DNA of 20,937 bases from a virus, in IMG/VR virus record IMGVR_UViG_3300009506_000213, positions 1-20,937 of that record. One strand, 5' to 3'. Of the stretch, positions 2 to 20,937 are shown one piece after another (position 1 is the first letter of the stretch; each line of letters opens with the position of its first letter). A model generated the notes under the pieces. That model searched no databases. It saw only the letters and a program-made list of their open reading frames with translations, and was not told the DNA's origin. A program made the translations under genes and the position numbers.

Positions 2-859
2 CCGCCGCCCTGGACGGCAGACCCGATCCTCAACAACTGGCGCTTCACCAACGTGTACCGGGAGCTTGACCCGGGCACCGAGTTCATCGTGCGGCATCTG
101 CGGGCCGCCCCGGGAGCGCCGCTGTGGGACCGGCTGGTCAACATCTCGGCCTACCGGCTGGGCGTGAGCATGAGCGGGATGCGGGCCCTCGGATTCATCG
201 AGTGCAGCTCGGCCACCAACCACCGCATAACGGCCAGGCTGCAGGAAACCGACCGCCCCTTCACGGGGGCCTACATGGTGCACAACATGATGCGCCGAGA
301 ACCCAAAGCGGTGGTGCTGGGCGACGTGATCCGCAACCACGCCAAGGCCGCCCCGATGCTGACCAAGAGATTGCGGGAGGCGCACGAGCGGCAAGAGGCC
401 TGGATGATGCTGCGCGAAGGCCTCGAAGGAGTGGGTGATTTCGTGTCGTTCCAGATCCTTGTCGACCTGGGCTACCGTGGCGTCGCCCCCGAGCTTCGTC
501 CGGCCGTCCGCGACAACGACGGTTTCGCCACCCCGGGGCCGGGCGGCCGCCGGGGGCTGGAGCGGCTGTGGCCCGGGCTCGGAAAGTTGCCCGGGGAAGC
601 CAACATGGTGCTGGCCAAGATGTCCCTGCAGCAACACGAAGCCCTGGGGCGGATGCTGGGCGGGTGGGCCAAGGGCGAGTCGCCCCGCAGGATCAGCCGG
701 GCCAACCTGCAGAATTGCGCCTGCGAATGGGACAAGTACTACCGAGCCTCGACGGGGACCGGCAAGGTGCGCCGCCGGTTCGACCCCCGGCTGGCCCGGG
801 AGGCCGATCTTTCGGCCAGCGGCAACGGCCACGGCGACCAACTGGAGGTGGCATTATGA
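2..859 (+). CDS. Thymine-hypermodification helical protein (HMUDK helical / ADDT-like), 5' partial
   Basis: The frame is open from base 2 and has no start inside the window; the GTG at 53 falls inside a conserved block, so the gene begins upstream. The visible N-terminus reads PPWTADPILNNWRFTNVYRE, followed by LDPGTEF. This block is characteristic of the helical family tied to DNA thymine hypermodification (5-hmdU DNA kinase helical domain and amino acid:DNA transferases, earlier called aGPT-Pplases). A second family hallmark is FVSFQILVDLGY followed by FATPGPGGRRGLERL near bases 445-570. Members act on phage DNA in which thymine was replaced by hydroxymethyluracil, in the steps that activate the base or attach an amino acid or polyamine. 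The next gene overlaps by 4 bases (ATGA at 856) and encodes the matching kinase type. Family membership is fairly sure; which step it performs cannot be told from sequence alone. Confidence 0.8.
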   Translation, partial: PPPWTADPILNNWRFTNVYRELDPGTEFIVRHLRAAPGAPLWDRLVNISAYRLGVSMSGMRALGFIECSSATNHRITARLQETDRPFTGAYMVHNMMRREPKAVVLGDVIRNHAKAAPMLTKRLREAHERQEAWMMLREGLEGVGDFVSFQILVDLGYRGVAPELRPAVRDNDGFATPGPGGRRGLERLWPGLGKLPGEANMVLAKMSLQQHEALGRMLGGWAKGESPRRISRANLQNCACEWDKYYRASTGTGKVRRRFDPRLAREADLSASGNGHGDQLEVAL

Positions 860-1512
860 AGGGAGCGCTGAGGGGGCTCGATGCCGAGCCCACAGGCCGC
901 GATTTGTTGGCCGTGTTCGGGCCGCCCGGCACGGGCAAGAGTACGGTGGTCAAGGCCCTCACGGCCGAGTTGCCAGTGGAGAATTACCGCTGGAAAGACG
1001 AGGCCACCCTGTGGCTCTATCGCTATGCCCTGCCCGACGGCGAGGGCGAGGTATATGAGCCGGGCAAAGGCCAGGCCGGGACGGCCCGGGGCGTGGCGCA
1101 CCGGGGCACCGACCTGCTGGACCACCGGGTGCAGCCCTACGCCGAAGAGTGGCTGCGCGAGCACCCCCCCCCCATGCTGATGCAGGAAGGGTGCCAAGTG
1201 CTGGCCAGCCGCACGTGGTTCCAGGTGGCCGAAGAGCTTGGCTACCGGGTGAGGGTGTTCTACCTGGCGCTGAAGGAGGACGAGCGCGAAAAGCGGGTCA
1301 AGGCCCGTGGGTTCGCCGGGTGGGACGAACGCTGGCAGAAAGGCCTGGTATCGCGGATGCTTCGGCTGGCCGCCGAGCGCCAGGCCATCATGGTGCCAGC
1401 ATGGGAGGATCCGGAGCACATCGCCGACCTGATGGCCGAAATGTGCCCCGTGGCAGCTGCCTTGCGCCGGGCCGTGTTGGCGGCCGGGGCCAGCCAGGCA
1501 GAGCTTTTCTAG
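856..1512 (+). CDS. P-loop kinase, probable 5-hydroxymethyl-dU DNA kinase
   Basis: This 218-residue protein starts at an ATG overlapping the previous stop (ATGA). Walker A is GPPGTGKS at residues 22-29. A second motif, MLMQEGCQVLASRTWFQVAE, followed by a RVRVFYLAL strand and EKRVKARGF, matches the pattern EG-x-x-(L)...F...A then R..RG of the phage kinases that phosphorylate 5-hydroxymethyluracil in DNA. A lid-like segment WDERWQKGLVSRMLRLA follows. In characterised phages this phosphorylation makes a leaving group so that amines can replace it, giving hypermodified thymidine. The adjacent helical-family gene strongly supports this role, while a generic nucleotide kinase remains possible. A run of ten C (1164-1173) encodes HPPP and could be a slippage or assembly-error site. 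The frame is intact as given. Confidence 0.75.
   Translation: MKGALRGLDAEPTGRDLLAVFGPPGTGKSTVVKALTAELPVENYRWKDEATLWLYRYALPDGEGEVYEPGKGQAGTARGVAHRGTDLLDHRVQPYAEEWLREHPPPMLMQEGCQVLASRTWFQVAEELGYRVRVFYLALKEDEREKRVKARGFAGWDERWQKGLVSRMLRLAAERQAIMVPAWEDPEHIADLMAEMCPVAAALRRAVLAAGASQAELF
1164..1173 (+). repeat. Ten-base C homopolymer inside the kinase gene
   Basis: Ten consecutive C lie within the P-loop kinase frame, encoding the end of a His codon and three Pro codons. A one-base gain or loss would truncate the kinase C-terminus. It may be a slippage site or simply a product of high GC. Confidence 0.9.
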
Positions 1513-2634: not shown

Positions 2635-3984
2635 ATGAGCGACGAGCAGAAGAAGGAGCGCATCACGCTGGTGGGGTTGAACGCCCAGCACCTGTACCGC
2701 ATCAAGGCCGCCGAGCTGAAGTTCAGCGGTGGGGGCGAGTTGGTGCAGATCACGGGGCGCAACAAGCAGGGCAAGACCAGCCTCTTGAAGATCGTGGCCG
2801 GGGCGCTGGGCGGGGGCCGCCAGGTGGCTGAGACGGCCGTCAACTTCGACAGCCCCGACGGCACCGGCCAGGGGCGCTTGGAGCTGAGCAACGGGTTCAC
2901 CATCGAGCGGCGCCACACGGCCAACAACCCGAAGGGCTCGCTGGCCATCGTGGGCCCCGACGGTGGCAAGTACGGGCAGAAGAAGCTGGACGAGTGGGTG
3001 GGCCCCCTGAGCTTCGACCCCCTGGCCTTTTACCGGCTGGACGCCCAGTCGCAGCGGGACACGCTGCTGCGGAGCGGCAGCAACCCCGAGCTGCCCGACC
3101 AGCTGGCCAAGATCAAGGACCAGGTGGCCGAGCTTGCTGCCGAGCGCACGCCCCTGATCCGCCGGATCCAGATCGCCGAGCGCACCGAGGCCCCCGAGGG
3201 CGAGAGGCCCGAGCCCATTGACGCCGGCAAGGAGCTGGCGGCACTGGCCAAGCTCGAAGAGGAGAAGATGGTGCTGGACGCCAAGATGGAAGAGGTCCGG
3301 GCCGCCGACAGGGCCGCCGACCAGAAGGCCGACGAGGCCTTGAAGGCTGTGCGGCAGGCCGAAGAATTGGAAGCCAAGGCGGCGGAGTGGCGGGCCGAGG
3401 CAGCCCAGAAGCGAGAGGCGTCCGAGCGGTTGGCCGACGAGGCCAGGGCCGCCGAGGAGCGGTTGACGGCGGGGCTGGAACCGCTGGTGGCCAAGATGAC
3501 CGAGGTCAAGGAGCGGATCTACAAGGCTGAGAGCCACAACCAGGGGCTGGCGCCGTGGCGGGAGTACGACCGGCTGATGGCGGAGGCCGAAGAAGCCAAG
3601 ACGCAGCGCGACAAGTTCGACAAGGAGATCGCCGACCTGCGGGACCAGGAGAAGGCCCTGTTGCAGGAAGCGGGCATCGATATCCCGGGCCTCAGCTTCA
3701 CGGACGACGGCCAGCCCTTGCTGAATGGGCTGCCCCTAAGCGAGGCGAGCGGCCGGGAGAAGTGGGAGTTTGTCGTCGAGGTGGCCGAGCGGGCCGGGGG
3801 CCAGCTGGGGGTGTGCCTGCTGGACGAGGCCAGCGGTGTGGACGACGAGGGCATGGAGAGCTTGGCCGCGGTGGCGGCAGAGCGTGGCTTCCAGGTGTTC
3901 CTCACCCGCCTCAGCCCGGTTGGCCCCGGGGAAGTGGTCACCTGCGAGGACGGTGTGGCTTGGAACGAAGGAGGCGAGCCATGA
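2635..3984 (+). CDS. Rad50/SbcC-like AAA ATPase with coiled coil
   Basis: This 449-residue protein is preceded by a GGGGAG ribosome binding site. Walker A is GRNKQGKTS at residues 41-49. A coiled coil rich in Ala, Glu, Lys and Arg runs from about residue 155 to 345. The C-terminal part has an ABC-type signature LSEASGREK (about 368-376) and Walker B VCLLDEAS (Asp397, Glu398). The layout of head, coiled coil, head is that of SbcC/Rad50/RecF-like ATPases, shortened as in many phage versions and without a clear zinc hook. Such proteins work with a nuclease in end processing. No SbcD-like phosphoesterase is in the window, so one of the two upstream nucleases may be the partner (inference). Confidence 0.85.
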   Translation: MSDEQKKERITLVGLNAQHLYRIKAAELKFSGGGELVQITGRNKQGKTSLLKIVAGALGGGRQVAETAVNFDSPDGTGQGRLELSNGFTIERRHTANNPKGSLAIVGPDGGKYGQKKLDEWVGPLSFDPLAFYRLDAQSQRDTLLRSGSNPELPDQLAKIKDQVAELAAERTPLIRRIQIAERTEAPEGERPEPIDAGKELAALAKLEEEKMVLDAKMEEVRAADRAADQKADEALKAVRQAEELEAKAAEWRAEAAQKREASERLADEARAAEERLTAGLEPLVAKMTEVKERIYKAESHNQGLAPWREYDRLMAEAEEAKTQRDKFDKEIADLRDQEKALLQEAGIDIPGLSFTDDGQPLLNGLPLSEASGREKWEFVVEVAERAGGQLGVCLLDEASGVDDEGMESLAAVAAERGFQVFLTRLSPVGPGEVVTCEDGVAWNEGGEP

Positions 3985-5108: not shown

Positions 5109-5361
5109 CCCGCGGAAGAAGCCACTGTTGACGAAGGACGAGGCCATCCAGGCCTATTACTTCCTCCTCAAGCTCATGGGCCCCGAAAGCCGAAGACGCC
5201 TGCGGTACCAGATGGCCAAGCGGGGGCCGGACGCATCGACGCAGCAGCGCGAGTTGCTCATCAGGTCGATTGACCAGTTCGAGGCCGACCTGGCCCACGC
5301 TGAGCGGAGCCAGATAGTGATTGTCGGCCCCGACCAGTTGCCCCCGGAGGCGCCCCAATGA
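5101..5361 (+). CDS. Small hypothetical protein
   Basis: This 86-residue protein begins at ATG 5101, overlapping the previous gene by 8 bases, and its stop overlaps the next start by 4 bases. The sequence is charged and helical (DEAIQAYYFLLKLMG, ESRRRLRYQMAKRG, RELLIRSIDQFEADLAHAE) and ends in a Pro-rich tail. No family was recognised. The translational overlap on both sides suggests it is made together with the HExxH and sulfotransferase-like proteins. Confidence 0.65.
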   Translation: MDDPRKKPLLTKDEAIQAYYFLLKLMGPESRRRLRYQMAKRGPDASTQQRELLIRSIDQFEADLAHAERSQIVIVGPDQLPPEAPQ

Positions 5362-5999
5362 TGGTGAACGAGTACCTCGACGCCATCTTTCTGGCTCACA
5401 CCAAGGTGGGCAGCCGGGATACGTATCGAGAGCTTAAGAACCATGGGTTCTGGCTACTGGGGAAGCGCCACTGGAACCTGGCAGACTTGCGCCGCCAGCG
5501 CGACGTTTGGACGGGCCCGGCGCCCCTGCGGAACCTAGATCGCTTCGAAGCCCTGGGCGGCTGGGAGCGGGAGTGGCGGTTCTTCGTCACCGTGCGCCAC
5601 CCGGTGGACCACCTGCTGAGCCACTACTGCTTGGTCCCCTACAGCGGCACGCAACCCATCCAAGAACGGATCCCCCTGCGGTGGGTGCAGAACCTGCACC
5701 TCGCCCAGCCCCAATACTTCCCCGGCCCTGGCCGCCAGTGGCGGTTCCTGTACCAAGACCCCGCCCCCTGGCGGGTGTTGAAGTGGGAGACCCTCCAGGC
5801 CGACCTGCTGGGGGCCCTGCAGGACCTGGGGCTCCCGGCCACCCGCCTTTATCACCTGAACCGGGGCAAGAACCCCGATACAGCCACCGCCAACAAGCCA
5901 CCCGGGCCCGCACGCCGGTGGTGGAGCGAAGAGGCCTACCAGTGGTACCGCCGCACCTACGCTGAGGAGCTTGCCCTCACGGGATACGACATGCCTTGA
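5358..5999 (+). CDS. Sulfotransferase-like protein
   Basis: This 213-residue protein has the layout of PAPS-dependent sulfotransferases. An N-terminal strand-loop IFLAHTKVGSRDTY (Lys16, Gly18, Ser19) takes the place of the 5'-phosphosulfate loop (commonly K-x-G-[ST]). HWNL follows. FFVTVRHPVDHLLSHYC at residues 75-91 is the 3'-phosphate motif (Arg80, Ser88). VLKWETLQADLLGALQDLGL matches the usual E-x-L-x-x-D...LGL helix. The end, WWSEEAYQWYRRTYAEELAL with TGYD, resembles the conserved tail helix I...Y..DL...GY. It would transfer sulfate from PAPS to an alcohol or amine; the acceptor is unknown. Being on a phage, acceptors could be host surface glycans, a metabolite or, more speculatively, modified DNA. 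The first loop is degenerate, so activity is not certain. Confidence 0.7.
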   Translation: MMVNEYLDAIFLAHTKVGSRDTYRELKNHGFWLLGKRHWNLADLRRQRDVWTGPAPLRNLDRFEALGGWEREWRFFVTVRHPVDHLLSHYCLVPYSGTQPIQERIPLRWVQNLHLAQPQYFPGPGRQWRFLYQDPAPWRVLKWETLQADLLGALQDLGLPATRLYHLNRGKNPDTATANKPPGPARRWWSEEAYQWYRRTYAEELALTGYDMP

Positions 6000-7027: not shown

Positions 7028-7464
7028 GCGCCCGCGACCTCAGTGGCGGGTTCGTGCTGGTGGCCGTCATGGCCGTCGTGCTGGCCGGAAGGGCGCTGGG
7101 CGGGGAGGGGCCGCCCGATTGGCGACAGGCGGCCGAGCAGTGCATGGGCGAGATGGTGGAGCTCAAGGGGCTGATCGAACCGCTGAAGCGGTGGGCCGAC
7201 GCCGACTGCCACGAGGCGTGGGATGTGCCATGGCAAAACGGCCCCCTCCGGGCCGTGGGGCTGGTGTGTTTGTACGACCCCGAGGCCCCGCCCCCGGACA
7301 CAGCAGGGGTCGCGGGCAGTGGGTTTTTACCCCCAGGGGCTTTCGACGCCCCGCTTTTGGGCGCCATATTGGGGCCTAGTATCGCCGCACCGCAGGACCC
7401 CAGCAGTCAAAGTAGCAGCACGCGCCACCGAGCAGCACGCCCCAGCCGCGAGAGAGGTACGTGA
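7024..7464 (+). CDS. Small protein with N-terminal membrane segment
   Basis: This 146-residue frame has an N-terminal hydrophobic stretch GGFVLVAVMAVVLAGRALGG (about residues 8-27), a signal anchor or signal peptide. The next part has a helix EQCMGEMVELKGLIEPLKRW and Cys residues in DCHEAW and LVCLYD. From about base 7310 the coding pattern weakens: the predicted tail is Ser/Pro/Arg rich and the DNA holds hairpins. The true protein may be open to 7464 but the last 50 codons are less convincing. No family was recognised. Confidence 0.55.
   Translation: MSARDLSGGFVLVAVMAVVLAGRALGGEGPPDWRQAAEQCMGEMVELKGLIEPLKRWADADCHEAWDVPWQNGPLRAVGLVCLYDPEAPPPDTAGVAGSGFLPPGAFDAPLLGAILGPSIAAPQDPSSQSSSTRHRAARPSRERGT
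7336..7358 (+). terminator. Weak hairpin plus T-run
   Basis: GGGGC (7336-7340), a seven-base loop and GCCCC (7348-7352) are followed by GCTTTT. Another short perfect hairpin, GGGTTTTTACCC, lies at 7321-7332. The stem is only 5 base pairs and both fall inside the tail of an open frame, so this is a weak terminator candidate. Confidence 0.25.
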
Positions 7465-7476
7465 GGTGCAACGGTC

Positions 7477-7854
7477 GTGTCCAGCAGCGTGAACGGTCCG
7501 AGAAGCATTGACAGCATCAGGAGCCGGAAAGAGGCCCGCAGCCGAGCCCGCAAGGCCCGGTTGCGGGCTTTTCAATTTGGGACCGACGGCAAGCGCGAGT
7601 GGATTTTGCGGCACCCCAGCGTCCTAAGCGGCCAGTGGCCCGTGGATCCGGCCCACGTGCTGGGGACCCGAGGGGCCGGGCACGGGGCCGAGGGGCTGTG
7701 CCCGTTGACGCGGGCCGAGCACCGGGACTTTGACGGCAGCATGACGGACGAGCGGTTCCGCCGCCGCCATGGCCATGGGCGCGAATGGGTCCGGGAGGCG
7801 GCCCGCCAGCTGGAGAGGGAGTGGCAAGCATGGCAAAACGACCTGGCTTTCTGA
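7477..7854 (+). CDS. HNH-like (DUF968-type) protein, possibly degenerate
   Basis: This 125-residue protein is taken from GTG 7477, with GAGGTG about 8 bases upstream; there is no better start before the conserved part. Residues 56-86 read VDPAHVLGTRGAGHG then LCPLTRAEHRDFDG, which matches the HNH-like pattern D-P-A-H...G.GH...PL...H..D seen in phage DUF968/NinG-like nucleases (His60, His82). The paired CxxC zinc motifs of many HNH proteins are absent, as is a clear final H. Phage HNH proteins commonly sit beside the terminase genes and assist packaging cleavage, as here. A terminator-like hairpin lies within the first third of the frame, so the real start could be later. Confidence 0.55.
   Translation: MSSSVNGPRSIDSIRSRKEARSRARKARLRAFQFGTDGKREWILRHPSVLSGQWPVDPAHVLGTRGAGHGAEGLCPLTRAEHRDFDGSMTDERFRRRHGHGREWVREAARQLEREWQAWQNDLAF
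7546..7572 (+). terminator. Rho-independent terminator-like hairpin inside an open frame
   Basis: A perfect 8-base-pair stem, GCCCGCAA (7546-7553) and TTGCGGGC (7561-7568), encloses a 7-base loop and is followed directly by TTTT (7569-7572). This is the best intrinsic terminator shape in the window. It falls inside the HNH-like frame, where it encodes Arg/Ala/Leu residues, so it may be chance, an attenuator, or a sign that the gene starts downstream. Confidence 0.45.
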
Positions 7855-8096
7855 CGTTTGTGCTGCACCCGCAGCCGCCGCCGCCCCACGACGACGACCT
7901 GGTGGGCATCGACCCCGTGGTGGCCGCCCTGTTGCGTATCGCGGCCCGGGACGCCCTGGAGGAACAGCTCAACCTCGAGCTGCTGGCTCGCGTGTGGGGC
8001 TGCCGTGTGGATCTGGTTCCCGATGTGGTGCGCCTTCTCATGCCCGCCGCCCTTGAGGGGGAGGGGGAAAGAGAGGGAGGAAGACAAGGGGGGTGA
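7830..8096 (+). CDS. Small hypothetical protein
   Basis: This 88-residue protein starts at ATG 7830, preceded by a GGAGAGGGAG ribosome binding site at 7812-7821 and overlapping the HNH-like gene. The N-terminus has FVLHPQPPPP, then a helical core DPVVAALLRIAARDALEEQL, and a C-terminus EGEGEREGGRQGG encoded by the G-rich tract. No family was recognised. Its place just before the small terminase gives no firm hint of role. Confidence 0.5.
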   Translation: MAKRPGFLTFVLHPQPPPPHDDDLVGIDPVVAALLRIAARDALEEQLNLELLARVWGCRVDLVPDVVRLLMPAALEGEGEREGGRQGG

Positions 8097-8186
8097 GTCA
8101 GGGGGTGGGGGTGTCGTCTTCCTTCGGGGGCCATGAAGGGGGAGTGCGGGAAATCGGTGAAGGGGAAAAGCAGGGGTAGGAAAGGA
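8055..8186 (+). promoter_or_regulatory. G-rich purine tract before the terminase genes
   Basis: About 130 bases are almost purely purine on the plus strand, with many runs of 4-6 G (for example 8057-8061, 8063-8067, 8088-8093, 8101-8105, 8107-8111). It covers the end of the preceding frame and the gap before the terminase small subunit. The tract could fold into G-quadruplex-like structure or act as a packaging recognition site. The function is inferred only from composition and position. Confidence 0.35.
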
Positions 8187-8201
8187 AACGAGCGCAGAGC
8201 T

Positions 8202-9011
8202 ATGGGACAAATTCACCTCCACAAGCACACCTGCGGAGACGCCGGAGGGCGCACGCGGGCCGGCAAACCGTGTGGCCACAAAACGAGCCCGGGCGAACGG
8301 TGCAGGGCTCACCCCACCGACGATCCGGCCGATGTGCCGCTGACGCCCCTCCAAGAGCGCTTTCTCGACGAATACCTGGTCGACCTGAACGGCGCCGGGG
8401 CCATGCGTCGGGCCGGCAGCAAGTGCGCCCCGGGCATCGCTGCTGTGTTCGCCACCGAAACCTTGGGCAAGCCAAATGTGGCACGGCGATTGGAGGAGAA
8501 ACGGGCCGAAATCGCCGATCAGCTCCACATCACACGCGACCGGGTTCTCCGCGAAGTGGCCCGCATCGCCTTCGCCGACCTGAGGCGCCTGGTGAGGTGG
8601 AGCAACAACGCCACGCACTTCGTCCCCAGCGACCAGCTCACCGCCGACGACGCGGCGGCCGTGTCGGGGGTCAAAGCCAAGCACAGCGTGGCCGTGGATC
8701 CGGAGAGCGGCAGGGAGACCCACACGCATGAGCTGGAGCTGAGGACGTACGACAAGGTCGGATCGTTGCAGAAGCTGATCCGCCACCTTGGGCTGGAGGC
8801 CGAGGAGCACGTCCATCACACCCACGAGCTGGGGCCCGTGACGGAGCTCAGCGACGAGCAACTGATCGAACGGACCCTTACCCTGGCGGGGCGGATGCCC
8901 GGGGGCGCTGAGGTCCTGCTGAAGCGCCTGAGGGGCGCCGCGGCGGGTGCCGGCAACGGCAACAGCGGCAACGGGCGGCGGAATGGCGGGAACGGTGCCC
9001 ACGGCGACTGA
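8202..9011 (+). CDS. terS: Terminase small subunit with N-terminal zinc knuckle
   Basis: This protein is 269 residues from ATG 8202. An in-frame ATG at 8133 would add 23 residues encoded by the G-rich tract; 8202 is preferred because that extension is low-complexity, although neither start has a strong ribosome binding site. Residues 11-37 hold Cys11, Cys24, Cys34 and His37 in the pattern GGRTRAGKPC...GERCRAH, a zinc knuckle seen at the start of several phage terminase small subunits. LTPLQERFLDEYLVDLNGAG followed by AMRRAG, and then NVARRLEEKRAEI, is the Terminase_2 signature of the DNA-recognition helices. The C-terminus is Gly/Asn rich. It recognises viral DNA for packaging, together with the next gene. 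Confidence 0.85.
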   Translation: MGQIHLHKHTCGDAGGRTRAGKPCGHKTSPGERCRAHPTDDPADVPLTPLQERFLDEYLVDLNGAGAMRRAGSKCAPGIAAVFATETLGKPNVARRLEEKRAEIADQLHITRDRVLREVARIAFADLRRLVRWSNNATHFVPSDQLTADDAAAVSGVKAKHSVAVDPESGRETHTHELELRTYDKVGSLQKLIRHLGLEAEEHVHHTHELGPVTELSDEQLIERTLTLAGRMPGGAEVLLKRLRGAAAGAGNGNSGNGRRNGGNGAHGD

Positions 9012-14418: not shown

Positions 14419-17400
14419 ATGCCGGTGACGCCGAAGGTCATCAAAGCCCAGATGGGCGCCCGGATCCACAAGTATGCGGCCGCCCTCCAGCCCGAGCTGG
14501 CTGCCCGGGTGCTGGCGGCATGGAAGGCCATCGTCCAGCAGCTGGACCCCGTGATCCTGGCCGAGATGGCCAAGGGCGGGGGCCTCGAAAGCCTGATGGC
14601 CCAGCTGGTCCCAACCGAGGGGCTCAAAGAAGCTATGGCCCCGGTGACGAGCAAGCTGGTGGACGGCACCATCGATGCAGCCAAGCGATACACCCTTGAC
14701 ATCCCCGGCCCGGCCAGCCGCACGTTCAATGTGCTGAGCCCCACCATCGTGGAGGGGGTGAAGAAGCTCGACAGCAAGGTGATGCAGAAGCTGTCCGATG
14801 AGGTGCGGGAAACCGTGCGCAACGAGGTGCTCAAGGGCATTAAGGCCGGGGTCCACCCGTCGGTGACGGCCCGAGCCATCCGGGACACCGTGGGCCTGGC
14901 CCCAAACCAGGCCGACGCCGTGACCAATTTCCAGACCATGCTGGAGAACGGCGACCGCACGGCCCTGAGCCGCAAGCTACGAGACCGCCGATTCGACGCC
15001 ACGCTGAAGAAGGCCCTGGGCAAGGGGGGGAAGGGCCTGACCAAAGAGCAGGTCAAGAAGATGACGGACGCGTACCGTCGCAAGATGATCGCGTTCAACG
15101 CCAACACCCACGCCCGGACCGCGGCCCTGGACGCCCAGCGGCTGGGCCAGCATCTGGCCTGGGGCGATGCCATTGCCCGGGGCGACCTGAAGAAGGAGGA
15201 GGTCTGGAAGCAGTGGAGCGACAGCGGGGACGGCAACGTGAGGGAGGAGCACGTGACGGCCGGGCAGGATCCACCGGTGCGGTATGATGAACCGTTCCCC
15301 ACCACCGGCGAGCAGGTGCCGGGCGAGTACACCTACAACTGCCGCTGCGTGGCGTTGTACTTCGTGCAGCCCGCCGACAAGATCTTCGGGCCGCCGCCCA
15401 AGCACCCGGCCATGCCTGCCCCCGTGCCCACCCCGCCCCCGGCGCCGCCCCCAATTGCGCCGACGACGGCCGAGCCGGTAGCCACGGGGTTCGACCCCTT
15501 CGATCTGTCGCGGTTCCACCCTGACGTGGGGAAGGTGCTGATCAAGAAGCGCCAGGAAGCCTATCTGGAGGCCCTGGACGAGGTGTGGGCCCTGGGCAAG
15601 GCCGACATCGATTTCTTTGCAGCCTCCGAGGCAGCCCAGACGCTGGAGGAGTTCTGGGACGCCCGGGCCCGCTTCCTGGGGATCCGGCTCGACGGCGAAG
15701 GTGTGGCGGCCTTCAACCTGCGCCGGGAGGCCCTGCGCCAGGAGTACAAGAACGTTCAGGTCTTGCGCGATTCCCTGCTGGCATCGGAGAAGGCCGGGGA
15801 CGTTGCGGGCACGCTGAAGAAGATGAAGGACGTCCAGAAGCTCTTGGAGGAGACGCGCCTGAAGCACCCGAAGCCACCCCTAGGTTGGCAGGGCGGAGGG
15901 GCCGCGGTGGCGCCCAAGTTCGACCCGTTCAACATGGCGCAGTTCACCCCCGAGATGGATTCCGCCTTCTTGGCCGAGCGGCGGGCCGACTTCTTGAAGG
16001 CTTTGGAGCAGGTGTACAAGCTGCCCCAAACGGCCGTCATGAAGGACGAGGCTTTCGCGGCGGCCGATGCCCTGGAGGACTTTTACCGGGCCCGCCTGAA
16101 GTACCAAGGGATCAAGCAGGCCGGGGAGGACACGGCGGCCTGGAAGCTGAGGCGCGACGTGCTGCAGGCCGACATCAACGAAATCAAGCAGCTCAAGGCC
16201 CTGCTGTCGGCCAGCGACGAGCTGGTCGGGCAAACGGGGCCGCACATGATGAACCAGCTGAACGAGCTGATGAAGCGCACGCGGCTGGAGAACCCAGCCC
16301 ACGACTGGGCCACAGCCCTGGCCGGTGTCGCCCCCGCCGAGGTTCCGGTCGGGGCGACCGTCATCGAGGTGGGCGCCGGGCCCTTCGACCCGATGGACCT
16401 GTCCGTCTTCCAGCAAACGGGCTCGGTGGTTGAGGCGCGTCAGGCCAAGTACCTGAAAGCGCTGGACGAGCTGCACAAACCGGTGCCAAACCTGGACACC
16501 GTTGAGGATCAGGTCCTCCACATGCTCCAGCGGGTGGAAGACTTCCAGACGGCCCGGTTCAACCTTCAGGGCATGAGGCTCAAGGGCGAGACCCAGCAGC
16601 AGTGGAGCATCAGGCAGCAGCTGTTGCGCAAGCCCATCAAGGAGGCGAAGGATCTGCGCCTGAACATCCAGGGGGCCCTGCGCGATTTCGAAGAGCAGGG
16701 GTTCGGCATGGGGCCGGGCGAATTCACCAAGCTGCTGGACGAAGCCAACGCCATTGTAAAGGACACGAAGGCCAAGTGGCCACCCCTGGGCGAGGCCCCC
16801 GTGCCGGCGGGCGCTGTGGCTCCGCCAGGGGCCGCTGCTGCCGCCCCGGCCGAGGATGTGTTGCCCGGGCAGTTGAAAGCGTTCAACCCCGAGACGGCCG
16901 AGCTGAAGGGGGAGGCCAGCGAGCAGTTGCGCACGGCGTACCTGAGTGCCAGGGACGATATTCTGAAACCGCCGCCCCTGCCAAAGGCCCAGGACTTCGC
17001 GAATTACTACGACTGGCAGACGCTGAAGCTGAAGAATTTCGCCGAGATGCGGTACAAGTTCGAAACCAAGGTAGACGTCCCGGGCGAGGATCCCTTGACG
17101 TTCGTCACCCGGATGAAAGAGCTGTCCGACGAGATGCAGGCCATGGGCGAATTGCGGACCGTGTTCTTGGCCCATTATGACGAGCTGCGGGAGATGCCCC
17201 ACCTGGTTGACCAGATCGACGCGGCCGTTGAGCGGTACATCAAGTTCGCCAAGGCCCAGATCGGCGAGGGCAAGGCCACCGGGGCCGCCGCCTGGGCCGA
17301 AGAGGGGGCCGCCGCAGCCACGGCCGCGGGCGGCGAGGTGGGGGTGGGCGACTTCCTGGTTGGCAAGGAATCCGGCATCAATTTCGACCCCTTCGACCTG

Positions 17401-20400
17401 GCCCAGTTCGACGTCAGCCAAGAGCAGATGCTGATGGTGATGGAGCGCCGCCAGGATTACCTCTATGCGCTGAAGCGGTTGCACCTGGAGGTGGACGAGC
17501 TGGCCCCCGACGCCAAGGACTTCTACGAGGTGGTCACGCAGCGGCTGGAGAGCATTGTGGAGTTCCGCAAAGCCCGGCGCAATTTCGAAGGGCTGCAAAG
17601 GGTTGGCGAGCTGGCCAGCCAACACAAGATTCGCCTGGAGGTGATGCAGGACGCCGTCGACCAGTGGCAGGGGCGCCTGGACCAGTGGAAGGCGATTGTG
17701 GGGTATGCCAAAGATGCGAACGTGGTCGTAAGCCAAATGGGCAAGCAGCAGGCCACCTCGTGGCTGGTCAAGGTGACCGACTGGTACGGCAAGGAAGCCA
17801 AGACGTTCAAGTTCGCTGGCAGCCTGGACGACGCTTTGGCCCAGGCCGTCGGGGAGCTGAGCGGGGCGCAGAAGGCGAAGGCGGCGGGCATTCTTGCGGG
17901 CGAGGCCGAGGCCCCCGGGGTGGCGGGGATGAAGGGCGTGGACCTGAACGGCGGCATCGGGCAGTTCGACGCCAAGTGGATGCCGGAGCAAAAGCTGTGG
18001 GACGAGTACACGGATTTGGTCAAGGGGGTCCATGACCAGGCGCCCAGCTGGGTGGCCGACACGACCACCACGATGGTAAGCACGATGGACAAGTGGTCGG
18101 AGGCCAAGCTGAAGCTCTTTGGGCGCAAGCTGGCCAACGAAACGGAAGATGCCTTTGTGGCCAGGCGCACGGCGCTGCAAACAGAGCGCCAGGCGATCAA
18201 GGAATTGGCCGACCGGTTCGAAGACCAGGTGTACGTGACGGGCCTCAAGGAGGCCGACGACTTTGCCGACGAGGTGGACGCCCTGTGGAAGAAGCTCCAG
18301 GCCGAGAACCCAGTTCCCGGCAAGGCGCCCCAGGTGGGTCCGCCGCCGCCGTCGCCGGTGGCCGAGCCGGTGGCCCCCGCGGCGCCGGTGGTGCCGCCGG
18401 AGCCCGAGGCCTGGCCCACGGGGGTGTTCAACGCCAGTCGGCCCAAGTTCGACGCCGATTATCTGGCGGCGAAGGTCTGGGACGACGACGTGCTGGAGTA
18501 CCGGTTCAAGCAGTATGTGGAAGCCCGGGACTACCTCATGGAGCCGATTGCCGCAATGCCAGGGGACGAGGTGTTGCTGGAGCAGGCCAACCGGATCCGC
18601 GTCTGGCAGAACGAACGCGTCCACTACGAGGGGATGAAGAGGGCCGGGGAGAGCGACATAATTCACGCGTCCCGGCTGAAAGGCCTGGAACAAAAGGCGG
18701 CGCAGCTGAAGAAGCTGTACATCAAGGCCCAGGACGAAATGATCTTTGGGCTTGACGACGCGACCGCCGCAACCATCAAGAAGCAGTGGGCATCGATCCG
18801 GAGCATCGCCGAGGCCCAAATCAAGGCCGAGCAGGCGGCCGGCATCAACATCCATTCGGTGGCCGTTCCCGTGGCCGCCCCGGCCCCCGCGGCGGCCCCG
18901 GTGGCGGCGGCTGGCCCGGCCCCGGCGGCCGGGTTCCCCGTAAACCCGCAGTTCCACCCGAGCTACAGCATCAAGAGCGTCATGGCCAAGCGCGACGCCT
19001 ACAAGGACGCGTTGGCCAAGTTCATGGAGGGCCCGTCGCCCAGCGCCGCCAAAGGCGGGCCCCAGTGGGCGGCCCGGAGCGAGCTTAACCTGTGGGTCAA
19101 GGCCGAGGAGCGCCGCGTCAAGTACCAGGGAATGCAGCTGGTGGGTGAGGAGCCCGCGGCGTATGCGGCCCGGATGGCCACGATGAATAAGGACCTCAAC
19201 AAGCTGCGCAACTGGTATGACGAGCTCAACACCGCGATCAAGAACAAGACGTGGACCAAGGAGATGATCGACGAGGTGCGGGGCGGCCTCAAGGTGTACC
19301 GGACGAACGCAGTCAAGGAGGCGCAGGCCCTGGGTCTGCCGGTGAAGCCCGGGCTCGGCACCCCGCCAAAGCCAGCCCCCGCACCGGCCCCCGAACCGCC
19401 TGCCCCGGCCCCGGCCCCGAAGCCGACCCCGGCACCCAAGCCGAAGACGCCAGCCAAACCCCCCAAGGGGGCGCAGCTCTCGGAGGACCAGCTGACGGCC
19501 AAGAAGATCGGCCAGCAGAAGGGCAGCAACACCGGCGGCACGTACGAGGGGGCGGACGGGGTCAAGCGGTACGTCAAGTACTACGACGACGCGGCCCAGG
19601 CGCAGGGCGAAGCGCTGGCCAACCAGATCTACGCCGACCTGGGGCTGGCGGCGCCTCGCAGCATCGTGATGCAGGCGAAGAACGGCAAGTGGCTGCACGC
19701 GACCGAGATCGTGGACGACCTGGTACAGATGGACACGTACGCCGGGGCCGTCACCAAGGAGCTGGCCGAGGAGGTGCTCGAGGGGTTCGCCGCCGACGTG
19801 CTGACGGCCAACTGGGACGCCGTGGGCATGCACCTGGACAACGCCCTGGTGCACAAGCTGGGCAAGGGCAAGTACGAGATCTTCCGCATCGACCAGGGCG
19901 GCAGCTTCCTGTATCGGGCGCAGGCCGGGCGGAAGCCCACCAATCTGCTGAACCAGATCACCGAGTGGGAGGCCTTTGCCGGCTCCAAGAACCCGAGTTA
20001 CCAGAAGATCTTCACGGCGGCCGGATACCCCGAGGCCGACGCCATGGGGGCCAAGCTGGTGAAGCAGATCGAGCGCATCCGCGACCTGCGCAGCAGCTAC
20101 GGGACCTGGGACAAGTACGTCCGCAAGATCGCCCCCAACCTGAGCGCCGCGGACCGCGTGGCGGTTGCGCAGATGCTGGAGGCCCGGACCACCCTGCTGT
20201 TGCAAAAGGTTCCGGTCCTGAAGCAGTATGCCAAGGTCAAGGCTGCGGAGGCCGCCGCCGCCAAGAAGGCCGCGGAGAAGGCAGCCAAGGAGCTGGCCAA
20301 GGCCAAGAAGGCGGCCGCTGCGCTGGCCAAGAAGATCAAGGCCGCAGAGGACAAGCTGAAGGCCGCCGAGCTGGCCAAACAGTCGCAGTGGGGCGCCCGG

Positions 20401-20937
20401 GCCGGGGAGTCGGCCGCCGAGCTCACGGCCCGCCGTCGCCAGCTGAGCAATGCGGTGGCCGGTGCCAGGCGGAGCCTCAATGCGCTGGAGAAGCGGGGCA
20501 CCGGGTACGGGAAGATTGGCCGACCGCTGCCGCGGCTCAAGGGCGACCTGATCACCCCGGCGAACAGGATGTGGAAGAAGGTGGCCGGGGAGTTTCACGA
20601 GAGCGTGGAAAGCGGTTGGAAGACGCAGGGTAGCGTCCGGACCAGCCGCGAGGTGGCCAAGCAACTGGTCGCCAAGAGGCCCGATCTGGAGCAGAAGCTG
20701 ACGGCCTGGGCCAGCGAGTTCGGCGGCGGGAACAGCGGGGCGCCCGCTGACCGGATCGCCAAAGCGCTGGACAGATTCAGCGAAGGCTGGAACGGCAGCA
20801 GCATCGACGGCAGCTCCTACCGTATGGCCATGCAGCTGGCCGCCGAAGAGGAGTTCGGCCTGACGGTGCCCCGGGAGTGCTACATTGCCGGGGGCCACGG
20901 CGTGTCGCCCAACACGATCGCTGAGGCCGAGAGGTTG
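14419..20937 (+). CDS. Giant MuF-domain minor head protein with repeat array and kinase-like domain, 3' partial
   Basis: The frame is open for 2173 codons and leaves the window without a stop. Order of parts: a helical N-terminus; a Mu gpF-like domain (about residues 215-315; NANTHARTAALDAQRLGQ, then WSDSGDGNVREEHV, ending YNCRCVALYF); a Pro-rich linker; eight degenerate repeats of about 145-195 residues (starts near 358, 501, 656, 822, 989, 1183, 1337, 1512) with Pro/Ala linkers; a Lys/Pro linker; a kinase-like domain (about 1690-1900) with KGSNTGG (1701-1707), Lys1720, Glu1731, Asp1800, Asn1808 and DQGG (Asp1825); an Ala/Lys coiled coil (about 1935-2035); and an unfinished C-terminal domain. 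MuF proteins bind the portal region inside the head, and the MuF family includes polymorphic toxins with variable C-termini. I infer a virion-carried effector, possibly injected. Start is ATG 14419 with AAGGGG upstream. Confidence 0.85.
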   Translation, partial: MPVTPKVIKAQMGARIHKYAAALQPELAARVLAAWKAIVQQLDPVILAEMAKGGGLESLMAQLVPTEGLKEAMAPVTSKLVDGTIDAAKRYTLDIPGPASRTFNVLSPTIVEGVKKLDSKVMQKLSDEVRETVRNEVLKGIKAGVHPSVTARAIRDTVGLAPNQADAVTNFQTMLENGDRTALSRKLRDRRFDATLKKALGKGGKGLTKEQVKKMTDAYRRKMIAFNANTHARTAALDAQRLGQHLAWGDAIARGDLKKEEVWKQWSDSGDGNVREEHVTAGQDPPVRYDEPFPTTGEQVPGEYTYNCRCVALYFVQPADKIFGPPPKHPAMPAPVPTPPPAPPPIAPTTAEPVATGFDPFDLSRFHPDVGKVLIKKRQEAYLEALDEVWALGKADIDFFAASEAAQTLEEFWDARARFLGIRLDGEGVAAFNLRREALRQEYKNVQVLRDSLLASEKAGDVAGTLKKMKDVQKLLEETRLKHPKPPLGWQGGGAAVAPKFDPFNMAQFTPEMDSAFLAERRADFLKALEQVYKLPQTAVMKDEAFAAADALEDFYRARLKYQGIKQAGEDTAAWKLRRDVLQADINEIKQLKALLSASDELVGQTGPHMMNQLNELMKRTRLENPAHDWATALAGVAPAEVPVGATVIEVGAGPFDPMDLSVFQQTGSVVEARQAKYLKALDELHKPVPNLDTVEDQVLHMLQRVEDFQTARFNLQGMRLKGETQQQWSIRQQLLRKPIKEAKDLRLNIQGALRDFEEQGFGMGPGEFTKLLDEANAIVKDTKAKWPPLGEAPVPAGAVAPPGAAAAAPAEDVLPGQLKAFNPETAELKGEASEQLRTAYLSARDDILKPPPLPKAQDFANYYDWQTLKLKNFAEMRYKFETKVDVPGEDPLTFVTRMKELSDEMQAMGELRTVFLAHYDELREMPHLVDQIDAAVERYIKFAKAQIGEGKATGAAAWAEEGAAAATAAGGEVGVGDFLVGKESGINFDPFDLAQFDVSQEQMLMVMERRQDYLYALKRLHLEVDELAPDAKDFYEVVTQRLESIVEFRKARRNFEGLQRVGELASQHKIRLEVMQDAVDQWQGRLDQWKAIVGYAKDANVVVSQMGKQQATSWLVKVTDWYGKEAKTFKFAGSLDDALAQAVGELSGAQKAKAAGILAGEAEAPGVAGMKGVDLNGGIGQFDAKWMPEQKLWDEYTDLVKGVHDQAPSWVADTTTTMVSTMDKWSEAKLKLFGRKLANETEDAFVARRTALQTERQAIKELADRFEDQVYVTGLKEADDFADEVDALWKKLQAENPVPGKAPQVGPPPPSPVAEPVAPAAPVVPPEPEAWPTGVFNASRPKFDADYLAAKVWDDDVLEYRFKQYVEARDYLMEPIAAMPGDEVLLEQANRIRVWQNERVHYEGMKRAGESDIIHASRLKGLEQKAAQLKKLYIKAQDEMIFGLDDATAATIKKQWASIRSIAEAQIKAEQAAGINIHSVAVPVAAPAPAAAPVAAAGPAPAAGFPVNPQFHPSYSIKSVMAKRDAYKDALAKFMEGPSPSAAKGGPQWAARSELNLWVKAEERRVKYQGMQLVGEEPAAYAARMATMNKDLNKLRNWYDELNTAIKNKTWTKEMIDEVRGGLKVYRTNAVKEAQALGLPVKPGLGTPPKPAPAPAPEPPAPAPAPKPTPAPKPKTPAKPPKGAQLSEDQLTAKKIGQQKGSNTGGTYEGADGVKRYVKYYDDAAQAQGEALANQIYADLGLAAPRSIVMQAKNGKWLHATEIVDDLVQMDTYAGAVTKELAEEVLEGFAADVLTANWDAVGMHLDNALVHKLGKGKYEIFRIDQGGSFLYRAQAGRKPTNLLNQITEWEAFAGSKNPSYQKIFTAAGYPEADAMGAKLVKQIERIRDLRSSYGTWDKYVRKIAPNLSAADRVAVAQMLEARTTLLLQKVPVLKQYAKVKAAEAAAAKKAAEKAAKELAKAKKAAAALAKKIKAAEDKLKAAELAKQSQWGARAGESAAELTARRRQLSNAVAGARRSLNALEKRGTGYGKIGRPLPRLKGDLITPANRMWKKVAGEFHESVESGWKTQGSVRTSREVAKQLVAKRPDLEQKLTAWASEFGGGNSGAPADRIAKALDRFSEGWNGSSIDGSSYRMAMQLAAEEEFGLTVPRECYIAGGHGVSPNTIAEAERL
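15490..19370 (+). repeat. Eight-copy degenerate protein repeat array within the giant gene
   Basis: Units begin at a Phe-Asp-Pro-type motif at bases 15490 (FDPFDLSRF), 15919 (FDPFNMAQF), 16384 (FDPMDLSVF), 16882 (FNPETAEL), 17383 (FDPFDLAQF), 17965 (FDAKWMP), 18427 (FNASRPKF) and 18952 (FHPSYSI). After the start motif, most carry an R...YL.AL helix, an F...R..F.G. segment, a G(E)-containing turn and long charged helices, and several are separated by Pro/Ala-rich linkers. Copies 4 and 6 are the most diverged. Repeats are recognisable at protein level only. Confidence 0.7.
19465..20130 (+). other. Kinase-like domain within the giant protein
   Basis: This region shows a glycine-rich loop KGSNTGGTYEG, a VK pair (Lys1720), a Glu in the following helix (EALANQIYADLGL, Glu1731), and a catalytic-type segment LTANWDAVGMHLDNALV then FRIDQGGSFLYRA. 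The order matches protein- or lipid-kinase-like folds such as HipA or actin-fragmin kinase types: NWD..G..xDN for the catalytic loop and IDxGG for the metal-binding Asp. Family identity rests on motif pattern only. Confidence 0.6.

Follow-up and report, generated by a model that had tools for sequence, protein, structure and literature searches.

The window analysed here, a 20,937-base virus fragment (IMG/VR record IMGVR_UViG_3300009506_000213), has a left edge that cuts its first gene. This gene, on the (+) strand at 2–859 with 285 aa visible and its 5′ end lost at the contig edge, encodes a protein of the HMUDK_hel family (PF18723), and is followed on the same strand by a gene for a P-loop kinase of the Ploopntkinase3 (PF18751) type (856–1512, 218 aa). 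As the first-pass annotation had described, the two genes at 2–1512 overlap by 4 bases. The overlap is an ATGA stop/start at 856–859 (+), and a Shine-Dalgarno-like GGAGGT for the kinase can be read from the sequence within the end of the HMUDK_hel gene at 844–849 (+); the two genes are probably translationally coupled. G+C by codon position is 0.68/0.50/0.88 in the HMUDK_hel gene and 0.73/0.47/0.85 in the kinase gene, as in high-G+C coding DNA, and the E-values given below exclude chance as the source of both family matches.

The HMUDK_hel protein matched PF18723 over profile positions 26–276 of 281 (E 1e-30, 107.5 bits versus a cut-off of 25) and phrog_2396 (E 9e-35). Since the PF18723 match starts at position 26, approximately 25 N-terminal residues are missing. 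Three motifs had led to its initial recognition as a helical-family protein, PPWTADPIL (residues 2–10), FTNVYRELD (15–23) and FATPGPGGRRGL (175–186), and all three coincide with family-conserved columns of the HMUDK_hel alignment. All residues invariant in 55 aligned HMUDK_hel relatives are present in the fragment’s protein, including F15, N17, R20, D23, T26, R52, F147, D155, G179, G181, G185, C241, E242, K245, Y246 and G254. A stretch at residues 139–156, EGLEGVGDFVSFQILVDL (416–469, +), which hhalign aligned to the amino acid:DNA transferases (ADDTs, PF18724), is putatively helix-hairpin-helix-like, and the modelled fold resembles that of HhH-GPD glycosylases. The C-terminal motif QNCACEWDKYYR (residues 237–248; 710–745, +) has the family form EHSLCEFDKYxR, in which C241, E242, K245 and Y246 are invariant, and has a counterpart, ETxLCxFKK, in the ADDTs. 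The nearest sequence relatives of the protein are archaeal chromosomal proteins of 30–36% identity, most of which have neither a kinase nor a thymidylate-synthase-family (TS-family) gene nearby. In the HMUDK_hel tree the fragment’s protein sits on a long branch and is not part of the main viral clade linked to TS (97/95 support). PADLOC gave no match for this protein.

The kinase matched PF18751 with an intact P-loop (E 2e-11, 44.2 bits versus a cut-off of 27; Walker A GPPGTGKST at 919–945, +) and AAA_33 (E 1.4e-9), and PADLOC returned P-loop matches only. It retains the residues invariant among 18 aligned Ploopntkinase3 kinases (G22, G25, G27, K28, G70, G84, D86 and E111) as well as L116, A117, W160, K162 and G163 of the TET-linked lineage. 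The initial reading had credited this protein with the features of 5-hydroxymethyl-dU DNA kinases. Its membership in a P-loop kinase family tied to pyrimidine hypermodification holds, but the motifs of the M6-type kinases (CGGxD, RRxAKG and NPxNT) are absent and those of the other lineage are present. A kinase tree built from a 17-row set placed the fragment’s kinase inside the TET-linked Ploopntkinase3 lineage with 100/100 support, on long branches. AU tests rejected neither its grouping with the M6 type (p 0.29) nor a sister relationship with the kinase of Microbacterium phage BouleyBill (p 0.25), so the lineage claim rests also on the motifs and on Pfam. Many phage entries in GenBank/RefSeq, and phrog_800 in PHROGs, name kinases of this lineage ‘terminase small subunit’ or ‘adenylate kinase’.

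Downstream of the pair, genes for both terminase subunits (small and large), the portal and a MuF head-morphogenesis protein mark the fragment as coming from a tailed phage. Directly 3′ of the kinase is a small gene (1532–2098) that has no family match and whose product, judged by eye, is possibly a PD-(D/E)XK-like nuclease; another small gene (2095–2601) resembles phage endonucleases and Holliday junction resolvases (phrog_93, E 1e-10), and is followed by an ATPase gene (2635–3984). The 213 aa product of 5358–5999 resembled a sulfotransferase by eye, a candidacy we dropped because Pfam, PHROG and PDB returned nothing and the structure model was poor (pLDDT 39.5). At the other end of the window a very long open frame (14419–20937, 2,173 aa), cut by the right edge, begins as a MuF-type head protein, with no clear family match over the remainder. 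Within the 20,937 bases there was no match to the TS family (PF00303) or to ADDT (PF18724), a local profile revealed no TET/JBP gene up to the cut left edge, and no gene of the fragment matched a hydroxymethylase, oxygenase or transferase; the FAD enzyme gene of the M6-type cassette was likewise not visible. Single-protein scans of IMG/VR with HMUDK_hel, the kinase, the ATPase and TerL yielded no close relatives, and the left end is therefore not recoverable from a sister genome.

The company kept by each family elsewhere was surveyed by profile scans. For HMUDK_hel, 80 IMG/VR loci were collected, and Pfam models were run on whole records for 50. A TS-family gene was found in the fetched DNA of 72 of the 80 viral loci, and PF00303 in 46 of the 50 viral records, none of which contained TET/JBP (PF12851) or Ploopntkinase3 (PF18751). 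TET was also absent from a further 35 viral records (85 in all), in a run that detected one known TET carrier, and from two named HMUDK_hel phages. In M6-family phages (Mesyanzhinovviridae) the kinase gene overlaps or directly adjoins that for HMUDK_hel, with the TS-family gene directly after the pair or one gene further. A kinase was nearby in only 17 of the 80 viral loci. Records lacking a kinase have genes for the TET-associated glycosyltransferase (TAGT), other glycosyltransferases or radical SAM proteins; Brevibacterium phage LuckyBarnes, for example, has HMUDK_hel, TS and two glycosyltransferases. HMUDK_hel is not a kinase-specific domain, occurring also beside glycosyltransferases and in archaeal chromosomes, and this company, often without a kinase, links it to 5-hydroxymethylpyrimidine DNA generally.

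Several archaeal loci showed arrangements of their own. In the haloarchaea Halomarina, Haloarchaeobius and Haloferax elongans, HMUDK_hel and a set of four genes stand head to head (L171 1275–4800, L173 7329–10888 and L178 7329–10885); two of the four in L178 code for proteins of kinds seen in defence systems, one a ThsB-type TIR protein and the other a DUF4231/SLATT membrane protein. HMUDK_hel may have a role in cellular defence or repair too. In three archaeal MAG contigs (L170 3418–5317, L175 9080–11919 and L180 9866–12059) it adjoins a TS-family gene and no kinase was found; a dCTP-deaminase-like gene is also present at the L175 locus.

The kinase survey covered 80 other loci with Ploopntkinase3-type kinases. 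Neither HMUDK_hel nor a TS-family gene was found in the fetched DNA of any of them, while ADDT was upstream of the kinase in 65, directly so in 21. Among 35 Ploopntkinase3 records (33 contigs, Gordonia phage Wooper and BouleyBill), PF12851 was present in 31, PF00303 and PF18723 in BouleyBill only, and the C5-methyltransferase family PF00145 in none. Fisher p-values comparing the HMUDK_hel and Ploopntkinase3 record sets were 4e-19 for TET and 4e-18 for TS, which serve as a guide only, the records being best matches, partly interrelated and mostly fragments. As this kinase lineage occurs mostly with TET/JBP, the lack of a dUMP hydroxymethylase, initially proposed as part of the grounds for refuting hypermodification, would not be decisive. 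In Mycobacterium phage Knocker (L004 1–6147), a kinase of the lineage follows a set of 7-deazaguanine (queuosine-type) genes, and neither TET nor ADDT gave a match nearby, so some members of the lineage may act on something other than a TET- or TS-derived pyrimidine.

The HMUDK_hel and Ploopntkinase3 pair is a rare hybrid of two gene sets that hardly mix. The only other records found to join the two families were BouleyBill and the IMG/VR contig L254. BouleyBill is a complete 39 kb genome with a TS-family gene and neither TET nor ADDT (PF18724); L254 has HMUDK_hel, a TS-family gene with Asn, a PF18751 kinase and no TET, and an ADDT-like frame seen by local profile only. Both have TS and no TET, and for this reason a TS-family source is our first guess for the fragment and TET the second, on the strength of two cases. 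BouleyBill (genes 47–53) is the only named phage found to share the combination with the present fragment. However, the kinase precedes HMUDK_hel in BouleyBill and follows it here, the two BouleyBill proteins are only 20–29% identical to those of the fragment, and the base-specificity position of the BouleyBill TS-family enzyme is occupied by Asp and not by Asn.

Two known cassettes each resemble the pair in part. The thymidine cassette of the M6 family comprises 5-HMUDK, HMUDK_hel, dUMP hydroxymethylase, ADDT and an FAD enzyme, and like the fragment it couples the HMUDK_hel gene to a P-loop kinase gene (in L002, kinase 7354–7923 and HMUDK_hel 7923–8813). Its order is reversed relative to the fragment, with the kinase first and not HMUDK_hel, and the fragment’s kinase, unlike that of the M6 family, has Ploopntkinase3 motifs and the corresponding tree placement. 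A 5-hmdU kinase of the M6 kind has been tested; our search found no Ploopntkinase3 protein with a tested activity. The actinophage TET/JBP cassette of Wooper and Rhodococcus phage Tonitrus consists of ParB, TET/JBP, ADDT and Ploopntkinase3, and recurs without ADDT in Mycobacterium phage KayaCho. It has its kinase family and motifs in common with the fragment, and in Wooper, as here, the preceding gene overlaps the kinase gene by 4 bases. That preceding gene is ADDT in Wooper, which has no HMUDK_hel, and HMUDK_hel in the fragment.

HMUDK_hel and the amino acid:DNA transferases are separate families, and PF18724 did not match the fragment’s HMUDK_hel protein. Nevertheless, hhalign aligned the two over approximately 113 columns with a probability of 93.2% (E 3.1e-7), including a common (E)xxLCxF motif, versus 0.3% (E 0.2) for an unrelated kinase used as control. 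The Pfam ADDT model also matched three IMG/VR HMUDK_hel genes, as judged from coordinates (E 6e-5 to 3e-4). By these profile comparisons HMUDK_hel is a remote homologue of the ADDTs. An AlphaFold2 model (pLDDT 86.9, 55 sequences) gave weak Foldseek matches (best E 0.047), led by DNA glycosylases and the PaMx11 5-PmdU glycinyltransferase. VIA-align matched it to MjOgg (3knt; Z 10.1, 174 residues, rmsd 4.4) and to the PaMx11 enzyme (8z2n; Z 9.2, 215 residues, rmsd 4.4), with a run of HhH-GPD glycosylases also among the matches, although many helical models reach Z-scores at this middling level. For that reason the sequence evidence outweighs the fold match. A PDB sequence search with a clean HMUDK_hel profile returned a chance match only. 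The modelled fold is probably DNA-glycosylase-like, and the PaMx11 glycinyltransferase (PDB 8z2m, 8z2n) combines remote sequence homology with a comparable fold.

Family membership suggests that the pair likely has a role in phage DNA-base hypermodification. We favour, at a probability of about 0.55, a module in which a kinase coupled to a base-presenting HMUDK_hel partner acts on a DNA base of the 5-hydroxymethylpyrimidine type, most likely 5-hydroxymethyl-dU, to block restriction. The translationally coupled module would do its work once the phage DNA has been replicated. Its kinase, whose step we infer from family membership, would transfer phosphate from ATP to the hydroxymethyl group of the 5-hydroxymethylpyrimidine, most likely 5-hydroxymethyl-dU; HMUDK_hel would bind the DNA, flip and present the hydroxymethylated base, and probably set the sequence preference. 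A further enzyme would replace or keep the phosphate, yielding a hypermodified base that blocks restriction, and the 5-hydroxymethyl-dU would most probably come from a TS-family dUMP hydroxymethylase encoded beyond the left edge. The substrate, the partner role, the upstream gene, the final product and the anti-restriction function are thus each put forward as predictions. A comparable order is reported for M6, in which, according to PMC6449724, incorporated 5-hmdU is phosphorylated by the 5-hmdU DNA kinase and then modified further, with a reported kinase preference for TG/TC contexts. The base-presenting role draws on the fold, the remote homology, the tight gene coupling and the glycosyltransferase company; the occurrence of HMUDK_hel with glycosyltransferases and no kinase suits it better than a kinase-only role. 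Against the favoured reading, the fragment itself shows no match to a hydroxymethylase, oxygenase or transferase, most relatives of its kinase accompany TET/JBP and not HMUDK_hel, the BouleyBill TS-family enzyme carries Asp, the Foldseek E-values are poor, and the fragment’s HMUDK_hel falls outside the main TS-linked viral clade with best matches that are archaeal and lack a kinase.

The hydroxymethylated base could also arise otherwise. A TET/JBP-type oxygenase upstream might make 5-hydroxymethyluracil in place from thymine, as in base J synthesis, with no hydroxymethylated dNTP and with the kinase and its partner in the same roles as in the favoured reading. The kinase’s lineage motifs and 100/100 tree grouping point this way, as do the 31 of 35 Ploopntkinase3 records with TET/JBP and none with a C5-methyltransferase, and the single-direction ParB-TET-ADDT-kinase run of Wooper, with its 4-base overlap before the kinase as here. 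We nonetheless consider it doubtful, with TET/JBP in 0 of 85 HMUDK_hel viral records and in neither named HMUDK_hel phage, a TS-family gene and no TET in BouleyBill and L254, and an AU test that allows the kinase to group with the M6 type. Distinctly less probable is that cytosine is the base, the pair acting on 5-hydroxymethylcytosine from a dCMP-hydroxymethylase-type enzyme or from TET on 5-methylcytosine. In T4 dCMP hydroxymethylase, Asp179 fixes cytosine (PMC6400193), and BouleyBill, the nearest complete genome with both families, has the corresponding Asp. By motif reading of 141 TS-family proteins from HMUDK_hel loci, however, the base-specificity position is Asn in 132 and Asp in 8, which favours uracil; purified 5-HMUDK phosphorylates 5-hydroxymethyluracil in DNA but leaves 5-hydroxymethylcytosine unphosphorylated (PMC6457204); and PF00145 is missing from all 35 Ploopntkinase3 records. 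The first-pass annotation had called the genes a thymine hypermodification pair and taken partial replacement of thymidine to be implied. The tie of both families to pyrimidine hypermodification stands, but thymine is a probable base and no more, a cytosine route keeping some probability, and the implication as worded goes too far. The same annotation’s placing of the remaining pathway genes upstream concerns sequence to the left of base 1, where the record begins, and is a conjecture.

The main rival for the role of HMUDK_hel is that it is itself the transferase, standing in ADDT’s place and displacing the kinase-made phosphate with an amine or another nucleophile. It fills here the slot upstream of the kinase that ADDT occupies in 65 of 80 Ploopntkinase3 loci (directly in 21), no ADDT is seen in the fragment, and the complete BouleyBill genome has the pair without PF18724; the remote homology and the common C-terminal Cys motif agree with this. 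Yet HMUDK_hel and ADDT coexist in M6-family phages, which speaks against a plain exchange of one for the other, and HMUDK_hel also occurs with glycosyltransferases, where a phosphate intermediate is not expected. We regard this as unlikely, and give no better odds to its fuller form, in which an enzyme of a DNA-glycosylase-fold transferase superfamily would have replaced ADDT before a TET-lineage kinase to form a two-gene core of undescribed chemistry. It is least probable of all that the pair does not protect the genome, with HMUDK_hel serving, for instance, as a glycosylase-like factor in counter-defence or on host DNA while nucleotides are the substrate of the kinase. The nearest HMUDK_hel relatives are archaeal and chromosomal, with three haloarchaea placing the gene head to head with the ThsB-TIR/SLATT set, but the fragment’s gene is coupled to that of a kinase, an arrangement also seen in the M6 family of phages, and the kinase’s relatives accompany DNA-modifying genes throughout.

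The family that bears the name ‘helical domain of the 5-hmdU DNA kinase’ occurs in most cases without that kinase and is related to ADDT, and its name and presumed role therefore need retesting. The ‘terminase small subunit’ and ‘adenylate kinase’ labels on the kinase lineage hide systems of this kind. Hypermodification is one of the main answers of phages to restriction enzymes, and its chemistry depends on which few genes are brought together; the present pair crosses two otherwise nearly separate sets, TS with HMUDK_hel and TET with Ploopntkinase3.
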